A DNA stretch of 64,000 nucleotides, taken from the NCBI RefSeq assembly GCF_016907695.1, contig NZ_JAFBCK010000001.1, positions 3,316,001-3,380,000 of the forward strand. The letters are read 5' to 3'. Positions 40,620 to 46,582 of this stretch are shown here, one piece after another. Both the position numbers and the translations under genes were made by a program. Every line of letters starts with the position of its first letter. The first letter of the stretch is position 1. Under the pieces are notes generated by a model. The model was given only the letters and a program-made list of their open reading frames with translations, was not told the origin of the DNA and did no database searches. Origin of the DNA: Actinokineospora baliensis (GTDB lineage: Bacteria; Actinomycetota; Actinomycetes; Mycobacteriales; Pseudonocardiaceae).

Positions 40620-42046
40620 CCCAGCCAGGAAAGCGGTCGCACCGCCCGTCGCGCCCGAACCGCGCGCACCCGCCGCGCAGGCCCGCCACGCCGGAGCGCC
40701 CGCCGGTCGACGACCCGGCCCGCCGCGCCGCGCTCGACGTGCTGCAGGCAGTGCGCCACGACGACGCCTACGCCAACCTCGTGCTGCCCAAGCTGCTGCG
40801 CGAGCGCCGCATCTCCGGTCGCGACGCGGCACTGGCCACTGAACTCGCCTATGGCACCTGCCGTGCCTGGGGTCTGCTCGACGAGGTCCTCGCCGAGTGC
40901 GTGGACCGGCCGCTGGGCAAGGTCGAGCCGGTGTTGCTCGACGCGCTGCGGCTGGGCGCCTACCAACTGCTGCGCACCCGAATCCCCGCGCACGCCGCCG
41001 TCGCGTCCACCGTGGACCTGGTGCGCCGCGACCTCGGCCCCCGGGTCACCGGGTTCGCCAACGCCGTGCTGCGCAAGGTCACCGAGCGCGACGAGGCTGG
41101 CTGGCTGGAGGTCATCGCCCCCTCGCGGGAAGAGGACCCGATCGGGCACCTCGCCGCGCACACCAGCCACCCCCGCTGGATCGCCCGCGCCTTCGCCGAC
41201 GCACTCGGCGACACCGGCGACGAGCTGGCCGACGCCCTGCGCGCCGACGACGAGCGCCCGGCCGTGCACCTGGCCGCCCGCCCGGGTGAGGTCACCGCGG
41301 AGGAACTGGCCGCGATGACCGGCGGCGACCCCGCGCCGTACTCGCCCTACGGGGTCCGCCTGGAGCCCGGCTCGGGAGACCCGGGCGACCTGGACGCGAT
41401 CCGCGAACGCCTCGCTGGCGTGCAGGACGAAGGCAGCCAGCTGTGCGCGGTCGCCCTGACCAGGGTCCCCGTCGAGGGGGCTGACAGCCGCTGGCTGGAC
41501 CTGTGCGCCGGTCCCGGTGGCAAGGCGGCGATGCTGGGCGCGCTGACCGCGATCAACGGCGGCACCCTCGACGCCGTCGAGATCGCCCCGCACCGGGCCA
41601 GGCTGGTCGAGCAGATCACCACCGGGCTGCCGGTCACCGTGCACGTCGCCGACGGCAGGGAACCCGGGTTGGCGGGCACCTTCGACCGGGTCCTGGTCGA
41701 CGCCCCGTGCACCGGCCTCGGCGCGCTCCGACGCAGGCCGGAGGCCCGCTGGCGCCGCCACCCCGAGGACGTCGGCGACCTCACCAAGACCCAGCGGGAG
41801 CTGCTGACCAGCGCGCTCACCCTGGTGCGCCCCGGCGGGGTCGTGGCCTACGTGGTGTGCTCGCCGCACCTGTCGGAGACCGAGGGCGTGGTGTCGTCGG
41901 TGGCCAGGGCGACCGGCGCGACCGTGCTCGACGCGCGACCCAGCTTCCCCGAGGGGATGCCCGGTCTCGGCGACGGCCCGTTCGTGCAGTTGTGGCCGCA
42001 CCGGCACGGCACCGACGCCATGTTCTGCGCCCTGCTCCGGCGATGA
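40616..42046 (+). CDS. rsmB: 16S rRNA (cytosine(967)-C(5))-methyltransferase
   Basis: A protein of 476 aa. A basic Pro/Arg N-terminus (1-35) is followed by a NusB-like domain ('[26 protein letters not shown]', to about 175) and the SAM methyltransferase domain: '[18 protein letters not shown]' binds SAM, '[23 protein letters not shown]' holds one Cys and '[14 protein letters not shown]' the other. ATGA overlap with fmt. Confidence 0.95.
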
Positions 42047-44203: not shown

Positions 44204-44944
44204 TCACGGGGAGGTGAGCTGGGCCCGCAGTCCCGGCCGGAGCAGGACCGCGAGCAGATCGGGCTGATCCGAGAAGATCGCCTCCGCGCCGGGGCGCGTG
44301 CTGTAGCGGACCATCGCCTGCACCACGTCCGCGAACGGCTGCTCGCGCACCGTCCGGACCACCTGCCGCATCGTCGCCTCGTCGTCCTCCAGGTGCGCGG
44401 TTTCCCAGCGCTCAAAGAGGAACCCCAGCGTCAACCGAGCCTCTTGCCGCCCCCGCGTCAAGATGTCCCGGTTGAGCCCGCACACCTGCGCGGTCACTTC
44501 ACCTCTTTCCGTAAGAGGCCGATACCGCCCCAGGGTCAGCGACAGCGCCAAGTGCTCGAAGGGGTCGTCGACGGTGGGGTCCAACAGCAGGGCGCGGCCA
44601 CGGGAGTCGCGGGGGAACAGGTCGCGCTTGTGGTGGCTGTTGCACACAGAGCACGCCAGCAGGTGGTTGGTCCACGCGAAGGTCAGCAGCGGAGTCAGTG
44701 CCACCGGCGAGAAGTGGTCGATGTCGGTGCCTTGGTTGTCGCCGCAGTACATGCAGCGTTCCCGGCCTGGCGCGAACTCGCGTAATCGGCCACCGATCGC
44801 GGCGCGCAGTGTCGCGCGGGAACGCCAAGAGGTGCGTGCCTTGGCGGGCAATTCCTTGCGCGGGGTCGCCCGCAGCACGTCGGTCGCGCGCTGCAGCGAC
44901 TCCGCCAGCTCATCGGCGAGCGGCGGCCGGACCAGGCGGATCAT
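44204..44944 (-). CDS. ptuB: HNH endonuclease, PtuB-like subunit of a Septu system
   Basis: A protein of 246 aa. The HNH module runs from about residue 62 to 110: zinc ligands C64/C67 ('RCMYCGDN'), catalytic D76-H77 ('DIDHFSP'), N93 ('WTNHLLAC'), C98/C101 with N102 and K106 ('CSVCNSHHK'). The rest is helical. Septu systems pair an SMC/ABC-like ATPase (PtuA) with an HNH nuclease (PtuB) and degrade DNA in infected cells. Its ATG overlaps the stop of the upstream ATPase gene by 4 nt, so the two are translationally coupled. No reverse transcriptase gene is near, so this is not a retron version. Confidence 0.82.
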   Translation of the reverse strand: MIRLVRPPLADELAESLQRATDVLRATPRKELPAKARTSWRSRATLRAAIGGRLREFAPGRERCMYCGDNQGTDIDHFSPVALTPLLTFAWTNHLLACSVCNSHHKRDLFPRDSRGRALLLDPTVDDPFEHLALSLTLGRYRPLTERGEVTAQVCGLNRDILTRGRQEARLTLGFLFERWETAHLEDDEATMRQVVRTVREQPFADVVQAMVRYSTRPGAEAIFSDQPDLLAVLLRPGLRAQLTSP

Positions 44945-46299
44945 CGGTGGTCGTCACCGGCGATGAGGCGGGCGGCCACCTCGGTGACCCGCGCGGACGG
45001 CGAGCTGGTGAGGGTCTGCTTGAGCTGGTGGTAGCTGGCCCGCTCCTGCTCGTCGGCCACGCCGTCGAGGACCTTGAGCTCCAACTCGACCAGCAGGTGC
45101 CGCAGCTCGATGGCGCGGTTGGAGTACGCGGTGTCGAGGCCGAACAGGTCCGAGAGCACCGCGTCGTCGCCGGTGCCGTAGACGATGCGCTCCCACAGGT
45201 CCGGGTCCACCGTCTGCGGGCTGGTGTCCTGGTCGGGGCCGGGCAGGCGGATCAGGCCAGCCGGGTCGGCCGACTGGCAGATGTAGGGGCTGTGCGTCGT
45301 CACGAGGAACTGGACCTGCGGGAAGTGCTGCTTGAGCCACTCGCCGATGCGCTTCTGCCACGACACGTGCAGGTGCGCGTCGATCTCGTCGATGATCACC
45401 ACGCCCGGCACGCCGACCACCGTGCCCCCGGCGTCGAGGTGTAGGTCCCCGTAGCTCTCGTAGAGCTGCTTGAGCAGGTCTACGACCAGGGCGACCACCG
45501 TGCGATAGCCGTCGCTCATCTCCCGCAGCGGGAAGCGGTGGCCGCCGTCGGAGACCCACAGGCCCTCGGAGTCGACCTCGTCGATGCTGTAGTCGTCGGG
45601 CAGCAGGCCATCGCCGAGGATGCGCAGCGCGGACTCCTTGAGGTACTTCGCGCCCTCCCGCCGCTCCAGCGCCCGCAGGTGCTGCTCGATCAGCCAGGCC
45701 ACGCCCTCGGCCAGCGAGGCGTCCTCGTGGAACAGGCTCGCCATCCGCGCCACGCTGCCCGCGCCCAGCATCAGCCGCTGCACGTCGCCCGTGCCGCCGA
45801 TCAGCCGCCGGAACGGGCCGTACGCGGCGCAGAACCAGCCCGAGGGGTTGTCGTGCCACGGGCCGTTGCGCGGCGCGGTCTTGGCCCGGCCGTCCTCGCT
45901 GTGCTCCTCCAGCGACGGTTGGACCGGCCGCCGCGCCCAGGCGGTGTCCTCGGCGTCGGCCGCCGTCCAGCGCAGGCCCGCCCAGAACGGCCGCTCCGGG
46001 GGCCGCCCCTTCTTGAACCGCTCGAAGTTGAGGTCGAAGGTGAGCTGCACGGCGGCCGTCGCGTCCGACTTGCCCACCGAGATCCAGTTGTCGAAGTCGG
46101 CGACCAGCGTCCGCGCCGCCGCCGGTCCGCCGACCGCCAGGGCGATCCCGCGCAGCAGCGACGTCTTGCCCGACCCGTTGCGGCCCGCCAGGACGGTCCA
46201 CCCCGCGTAGGTGTTGTCCGGCCTGCGCAGGTCCAGGTCGACGATGCGCCCGTCGTGGAATCCCCGGACGTTGACCAGCCGGACCCGCGAGACGTACAT
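44941..46299 (-). CDS. ptuA: AAA/ABC-type ATPase, PtuA-like subunit of a Septu system
   Basis: A protein of 452 aa with an SMC/RecF-like ATPase head. It starts 'VRLVNVRGFHDG', then Walker A GRNGSGKT (39-46), an insertion with helical arms (about 100-250), the signature-like 'LREMSDGYRTVVAL' (258-271), Walker B 'VVIIDEIDAHLH' (300-311) and the H-loop 'TTHSPYI' (334-340). All catalytic motifs are intact. With the overlapping HNH gene it forms a complete PtuAB pair. A -10 box TAGAAT ends 6 nt before the ATG, so the mRNA is probably leaderless. An OLD-family or generic RecF-like ATPase is the alternative, but those do not come with this HNH partner. Confidence 0.82.
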   Translation of the reverse strand: MYVSRVRLVNVRGFHDGRIVDLDLRRPDNTYAGWTVLAGRNGSGKTSLLRGIALAVGGPAAARTLVADFDNWISVGKSDATAAVQLTFDLNFERFKKGRPPERPFWAGLRWTAADAEDTAWARRPVQPSLEEHSEDGRAKTAPRNGPWHDNPSGWFCAAYGPFRRLIGGTGDVQRLMLGAGSVARMASLFHEDASLAEGVAWLIEQHLRALERREGAKYLKESALRILGDGLLPDDYSIDEVDSEGLWVSDGGHRFPLREMSDGYRTVVALVVDLLKQLYESYGDLHLDAGGTVVGVPGVVIIDEIDAHLHVSWQKRIGEWLKQHFPQVQFLVTTHSPYICQSADPAGLIRLPGPDQDTSPQTVDPDLWERIVYGTGDDAVLSDLFGLDTAYSNRAIELRHLLVELELKVLDGVADEQERASYHQLKQTLTSSPSARVTEVAARLIAGDDHR

Positions 46300-46305
46300 A
46301 CCCCG

Positions 46306-46311
46306 ATTCTA
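46306..46311 (-). promoter_or_regulatory. -10 element of ptuA, predicted leaderless
   Basis: TAGAAT on the minus strand ends 6 nt before the ptuA ATG, so transcription should start at or next to the A of ATG. No good -35 is visible at 16-18 nt. Leaderless mRNAs are common in actinobacteria. Confidence 0.5.
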
Positions 46312-46475
46312 CCGCCTCGCACCGACAAACACCCCCGGTGACCTGGCCGTTCCCCGCGCGGGGACGGCCCATCGGTGGGAACCTCCCGCTGACCGCTCCG
46401 GGAATCGCCATCCAGGAGAAGTCCATAATGGACCACGGGGGTATTTCCGCCCGGTTTCCGAATGCGCGCCGCACC

Positions 46476-46484
46476 TTGTCCACA
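46476..46484 (+). other. Isolated DnaA-box match between ptuA and the ABC permease gene
   Basis: TTGTCCACA is the preferred Streptomyces DnaA box. It lies in a 283-nt divergent gap that otherwise shows no gene or clear promoter for the ABC operon. Single-site evidence only. Confidence 0.35.
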
Positions 46485-46582
46485 GGGCGATCTCGGCTCT
46501 CACATGGTGAACAGCGGCCCTCCCACGTGGCGCGGAGATCTAGCATCGCCGCGTCAACCACGCGCCAATCCGTGGAGTTCCC

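Follow-up and report, generated by a model that had tools for sequence, protein, structure and literature searches.

A probable stand-alone Septu type I (PtuAB) gene pair at a housekeeping site of Actinokineospora baliensis

Introduction

In the genome of Actinokineospora baliensis (7.68 Mb, single contig), a gene for an ABC/SMC-type ATPase overlaps a gene for an HNH nuclease. The original prediction, made on a stretch of 64,000 nucleotides (hereafter the window), took the two for a complete Septu (PtuAB) anti-phage module in a core-genome setting. The locus raises the question of whether these genes form a Septu unit of their own or the effector part of a retron, and of which nucleic acid they would cut. 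In the part of PMC12948488 at hand, a table gives Septu as a complex of PtuA and PtuB in a 6:2 ratio. According to the excerpts of PMC13096335 and PMC11555353, tRNA-Tyr is the target of Septu EcB88 and of retron-Eco7, and the targets vary within PtuAB.

Results

Organization of the gene pair

Both genes were found intact on the minus strand (Table 1). Their overlap suggests translational coupling, and the divergent region upstream of ptuA is the likely site of the ptuAB promoter. The GC3 value is 0.978 in ptuA versus 0.878 in ptuB. All the ATPase motifs named in the original prediction could be located, as could the HNH residues of the second gene (CMYC at 64-67, DH at 76-77, N at 93 and CSVCN at 98-102). 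The segment MSDGYRTV occupies a position like that of the ABC signature, and is so called by analogy.

Table 1. Positions in the window of the two genes, their motifs and the adjoining intergenic region
Feature	Position	Strand	Description	Basis
ptuA	44941..46299	-	predicted ABC/SMC-type ATPase of Septu, 452 aa	ORF list, PADLOC, Pfam AAA_21, Foldseek
ptuB	44204..44944	-	predicted HNH nuclease of Septu, 246 aa	ORF list, PADLOC, AF2, Foldseek
ptuA/ptuB overlap	44941..44944	-	4 nt	ORF coordinates
Walker A	46162..46185	-	GRNGSGKT, PtuA residues 39-46	sequence and alignment
ABC-signature-like position	45496..45519	-	MSDGYRTV, PtuA residues 261-268	alignment
Walker B / D-loop region	45367..45399	-	VIIDEIDAHLH, PtuA residues 301-311	alignment
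H-loop	45289..45300	-	TTHS, PtuA residues 334-337	alignment
HNH core	44627..44755	-	CMYC...DH...N...CSVCN...K, PtuB residues 64-106	alignment
Divergent intergenic region	46300..46582		283 bp between ptuA and the ABC permease gene	ORF coordinates

Profile and fold matches of the two proteins

The PADLOC profile search that had been proposed as a check gave near end-to-end matches for both proteins. The ATPase aligned with the PtuA model PDLC00269 at 592 bits (E 2.2e-178, residues 1-445 on positions 1-444 of 446), and the HNH protein with the PtuB model PDLC00317 at 301 bits (E 1.4e-90, residues 1-243), values well outside what chance would produce. In Pfam, PtuA matched AAA_21 and also SMC_N (42.9 bits, cut-off 40) and AAA_15 (42.5 bits, cut-off 32.1), the latter two being common to other ATPases, while the generic HNH model reached 18.5 bits on PtuB, under its cut-off of 21.4. 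The NCBIfam models of the retron Ec78 proteins stayed far below their cut-offs (104 bits versus 500 for PtuA and 14 versus 150 for PtuB). This places the pair far from the best-studied systems, and its substrate may differ from theirs.

By sequence, the top match of PtuA in the Protein Data Bank was the PtuA of entry 8ee4 (E 6.3e-18), followed by retron PtuAs. The same search with PtuB returned nine matches, comprising weak ones to retron PtuBs (E 0.004-0.09) and designed proteins at E 0.08-0.27. Both proteins were modelled as single chains. The AF2 model of PtuB was of high confidence (pLDDT 94.5), and all nine of its Foldseek matches at E <= 0.001 came from retron I-A or E. coli Septu complexes, the chains being assigned to PtuB by the names in the sequence search and by their lengths; the next match came at E 2.5. 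The PtuA model was moderate, with a mean pLDDT of 72, and its 50 Foldseek matches listed (of 189 at E <= 0.001) were all chains of PtuA-bearing entries. These data uphold the Septu label. Neither grouping that would have pointed elsewhere appeared. No Pfam Toprim model matched PtuA at E <= 0.1, and the NCBIfam RecF model gave 18 bits versus a cut-off of 172, with a RecN match that was weak as well, so that a place among OLD/RecF proteins is not indicated. No McrA family was listed for PtuB, whose structural matches at E <= 0.001 came solely from PtuAB complexes.

One element of the original prediction had to be given up. A long helical insertion at about residues 100-250 of PtuA had been proposed as the mark of a divergent subgroup. 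The segment is an ordinary PtuA middle with no extra insertion, because PDLC00269 aligns throughout without a break and because 259 residues separate the Walker A lysine from the Walker B aspartate (45 to 304), fewer than the 273 of Septu EcB88 (K43 to D316; excerpt of PMC13096335). The AF2 model is too weak to describe the structure of residues 100-250, the ten-residue blocks within 141-200 averaging 42-64 in pLDDT.

Conservation of the catalytic residues and of the pairing

The key residues of the ATPase and the nuclease are nearly all invariant among relatives. In a 39-row alignment of PtuA this holds for G39, N41, G42, G44 and K45 of Walker A, for M261, S262, D263, G264, R266, T267 and V268, for V301-E305 and D307-H311 of the Walker B/D-loop region, and for all four residues of the H-loop. 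In a 45-row alignment of PtuB, C64, C67, H77, N93, C98, C101, N102 and K106 are invariant and D76 is conserved at 90% or more. Septu EcB88 needs K43 and D316 of PtuA and H75 and N91 of PtuB (PMC13096335, in the part available). These correspond to K45, D304, H77 and N93 of the window pair, and the spacing of 16 between the histidine and the asparagine is the same in both.

The two genes also stay together. Among loci from named genomes, the 80 best of 172 confirmed were taken; in 77 of them a ptuB match comes after ptuA, eight of the 77 being partial or late-starting (L121, cut by the contig end, and L127, L141, L145, L150, L154, L165 and L166). The three loci with no ptuB match are L149, L156 and L164; in L156 the contig stops just after ptuA. 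L149 and L164 carry a close ptuA with no detectable ptuB adjoining, and may be orphan, broken or mis-assembled. The 4-nt overlap is present in 64 of the 67 loci that passed a start and completeness filter, the remaining three having spacings of -1, 7 and 8. Across seven of the eight Actinokineospora loci of the window's clade (clade A, described below), the window included, dN/dS ranged from 0.04 to 0.20 for ptuA and from 0.06 to 0.29 for ptuB (21 pairs each). Both genes are under purifying selection and are co-inherited. Synonymous divergence among these loci is about half as large for ptuA as for ptuB, which probably reflects codon bias, in view of the GC3 values given above.

At E <= 1e-60, a ptuA relative is present in 68 of the 390 genomes searched within the taxonomic family. 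The PtuA of L104, a record under the name Rhodococcus rhodnii NRRL B-16535, groups with Kibdelosporangium in the tree, and the record may be misnamed.

Genomic setting in the window

According to Pfam, ptuAB is flanked on one side by rsmB, asparaginase and O-methyltransferase genes and on the other by an ABC uptake operon. A reverse transcriptase gene beside ptuAB, which marks Septu type II and retron I-A, was not found: the eight flanking proteins, scanned with Pfam alone, hold no reverse transcriptase domain, and Rfam gave no match at E <= 0.1 between positions 42000 and 49500. Since, in addition, the retron Ec78 models stay below their cut-offs, ptuAB is not a retron. Of the 60 ORFs called in the window besides ptuA and ptuB, 37 were scanned with PADLOC, and no family was matched at E <= 1e-20; the Pfam families of the other window ORFs, among the 25 of 59 matches listed, are biosynthetic and housekeeping. 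These results agree with a complete two-gene module.

Two core sites in Actinokineospora

A search of 61 related genomes gave a match at E <= 0.001 in 15, and 14 of these hold a close homologue; 12 of the 14 belong to the 16 genomes of the genus Actinokineospora. Eight genomes including the window (clade A, 91-98% identity) carry ptuAB beside the asparaginase/O-methyltransferase block, the O-methyltransferase gene being absent from the site in G008. The core-genome setting first proposed holds, and it recurs at a second site (below), with the limit that among clade-A relatives one side (rsmB, asparaginase and usually the O-methyltransferase gene) is stable and the opposite flank varies. In G012 (L073:10720-12776), the order and orientation of ptuAB and the O-methyltransferase gene differ from those in the other clade-A genomes.

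Four further genomes (G006, G010, G013 and G014; 64-66% identity) carry the pair at a second site, co-oriented between ispG and an acetyltransferase gene (L074:6921-13716, L075:6850-13556, L076:4140-11351 and L077:6960-11137). The order there, from a Pfam scan of L075, is DXP reductoisomerase, M50 peptidase, GcpE/ispG, ptuA, ptuB and acetyltransferase. In all 12 genomes of the genus that lack an insert at this place, the ispG and acetyltransferase matches lie 49-153 bp apart, with only the ispG end aligned for G001. A single clade for the two Actinokineospora sets is rejected (AU p = 0.0007, from a quick tree of 48 rows that carries long-branch warnings). The pair therefore reads as a bare two-gene unit that made two separate entries into core sites. 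No target duplication was visible by eye at the three occupied and six empty junctions inspected. The genus offers a clean picture, with a defence pair placed in a housekeeping run, the empty site kept in relatives and no mobile element adjoining.

In three relatives a FAD-dependent oxidoreductase gene (362-380 aa) separates ptuA from the ABC permease gene (G015, L067:8150-9292; G011, L069:8422-9558; G005, L070:10865-11953). No tblastn match to it was obtained in the window at E <= 1e-3. Its absence there is likely a local loss, the PtuA of the window being nearest to that of G015. We considered it as a third Septu component and rejected it, because it is a FAD-dependent oxidoreductase (PF01266, one copy scanned); it is also absent from the window.

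Relation to a methyl-directed restriction pair

For both window genes the runner-up in PADLOC was mREase_IV ('Type IV methyl-directed restriction enzyme'), with 363 bits for ptuA and 176 bits for ptuB. All 10 further PtuAs scanned had it in second place too, and so, at E <= 1e-30, did 18 of 20 further PtuBs, P0235 and P0237 having no mREase_IV match at that limit. Loenen and Raleigh (2013; PMC3874153, available in part) enter ScoA3II+III (Sco3261-62) in their Table 1 as a system that restricts m5C DNA in vivo but not m6A DNA, and cite Gonzalez-Ceron 2009 for it. The PtuB relative P0146 (51% identity, 245 aa) is annotated as 'SCE39.12 ... len: 249aa', a length shared by the PADLOC model PDLC03661 (249). 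From the cosmid numbering, SCE39.12 would be Sco3262, and the mREase_IV models probably derive from the ScoA3II+III pair of S. coelicolor. The PtuB of L175, the highest on mREase_IV (260 bits), served as query in a protein search for Sco3261/Sco3262; neither this search nor the mREase_IV scans of 296, 15 and 341 genomes yielded a near-self match, the best score in the scans being 244 bits. Among 14 control genomes, PDLC03661 matched none and PDLC03660 matched one, Bacteroides ihuae. We found no link between Septu and ScoA3II+III in the literature searched, and none is made in the available parts of PMC10952713 and PMC12926258.

A depletion of methyltransferase genes was considered as a sign of methyl-dependence and set aside, the association being positive. 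A C5-methyltransferase match (PF00145) was present in 56 of 68 carriers versus 178 of 322 non-carriers (odds ratio 3.8, p = 2e-5), a comparison that has no positive control, is uncorrected for genome size and genus and is blind to site specificity. Within genus g16, assumed to comprise the genomes with handles 127-204 and G030, the counts were 20 of 25 carriers versus 37 of 54 (p = 0.42). The source genome of the window has four PF00145 matches. This gene-content test, which is indirect, does not favour a general dependence on m5C.

Discussion

We conclude that the window pair is very probably a stand-alone Septu type I (PtuA-PtuB) anti-phage module that lacks a retron part and falls in a large PtuAB lineage of actinobacteria. 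In the literature searched we found no member of the lineage that had been tested against phage. By analogy with solved and tested relatives, PtuA would bind ATP and oligomerize, and PtuB would dock on the oligomer in an assembly kept inactive in healthy cells. An infection or a foreign-DNA cue would then free the HNH nuclease, and the freed PtuB may cut nucleic acid, by nicking DNA or by cleaving a tRNA, so that the phage is stopped. As to the substrate, we lean slightly towards DNA, with incoming DNA rather than tRNA-Tyr as the best guess, a preference that comes from the runner-up model of both genes, that of a methyl-directed DNA restriction pair.

That the locus might be no defence unit at all, but a repair ATPase of the OLD/RecF/SMC type with an HNH gene next to it that has no relation to it, is very improbable. 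The SMC_N and AAA_15 matches above cut-off and the weak RecN and RecF matches go in that direction; against them, the rival families reach 18-43 bits versus 592 for PtuA, no Toprim domain is present at the limit used, and both the linkage to ptuB and the heads of the two fold searches lead to PtuAB. An abortive system that cuts tRNA, as in retron-Eco7 and Septu EcB88, where tRNA-Tyr is cleaved in the variable loop after infection, is an unlikely though more serious reading. The residues that EcB88 needs are conserved in the window pair (PMC13096335 and PMC11555353, in the excerpts cited above), but the variation of targets within PtuAB weakens the comparison and nothing ties the pair to a tRNA; the window does contain a tRNA-synt_1b (Trp/Tyr) gene away from the pair, which looks like a housekeeping gene.

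Somewhat less doubtful, yet still on the weaker side, is the view that the pair acts mainly as a Type IV (modification-dependent) restriction system corresponding to ScoA3II+III. PtuA might recognize or move along methylated foreign DNA and PtuB might cut it, and Septu and the Type IV pair would perhaps be a single family with two names. The recurrence of mREase_IV as second-best model across the family, the SCE39.12 label with its matching length and the in vivo restriction of m5C DNA by ScoA3II+III speak for it. Against it, orthology to Sco3261/Sco3262 is putative, being suggested by models and a label, the part of PMC3874153 at hand gives no domain description of the pair, and carriers are not poor in PF00145, within the limits of the comparison given above. 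The wider proposal, that the actinobacterial PtuAB is a methylation-triggered restriction system and that 'Septu' of genome surveys and 'ScoA3II+III' of the Streptomyces restriction study of 2009 name one family, we put forward as a tentative lead only. If it were true, the cue that sets off Septu in nature would, in these bacteria, be modified foreign DNA, and the two genes would enter housekeeping operons as a bare insert with no mobility genes adjoining. The value of this lead is that it makes the trigger of Septu in actinomycetes simple to test.

Returning to the preferred reading of a Septu type I module, the pair is ordinary as such, since 68 of 390 family genomes carry a ptuA relative; it is a well-supported addition to type I, of a known family. 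Among known systems, the PtuAB effectors of retron I-A (Ec78/Eco7, Ec83) give the best Foldseek matches of both window proteins, but the window pair differs from them in having no reverse transcriptase domain in the eight flanking proteins and no Rfam match, and in falling short of the NCBIfam cut-offs. ScoA3II+III of S. coelicolor is probably the same kind of gene pair, judging from the mREase_IV models and the SCE39.12 label, but the mREase_IV scores of the window pair are well below its PtuA and PtuB model scores. The E. coli Septu chains share only 15-19% identity with the window pair in structural alignments, and EcB88 differs in its longer Walker A-B spacing, the window pair being of the actinobacterial lineage. 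Nevertheless, like Septu type I (8eea/8ee4, EcB88), the window pair consists of two genes, an ATPase and an HNH nuclease, and it resembles this type in full-length profiles, strong structural matches and catalytic residues.
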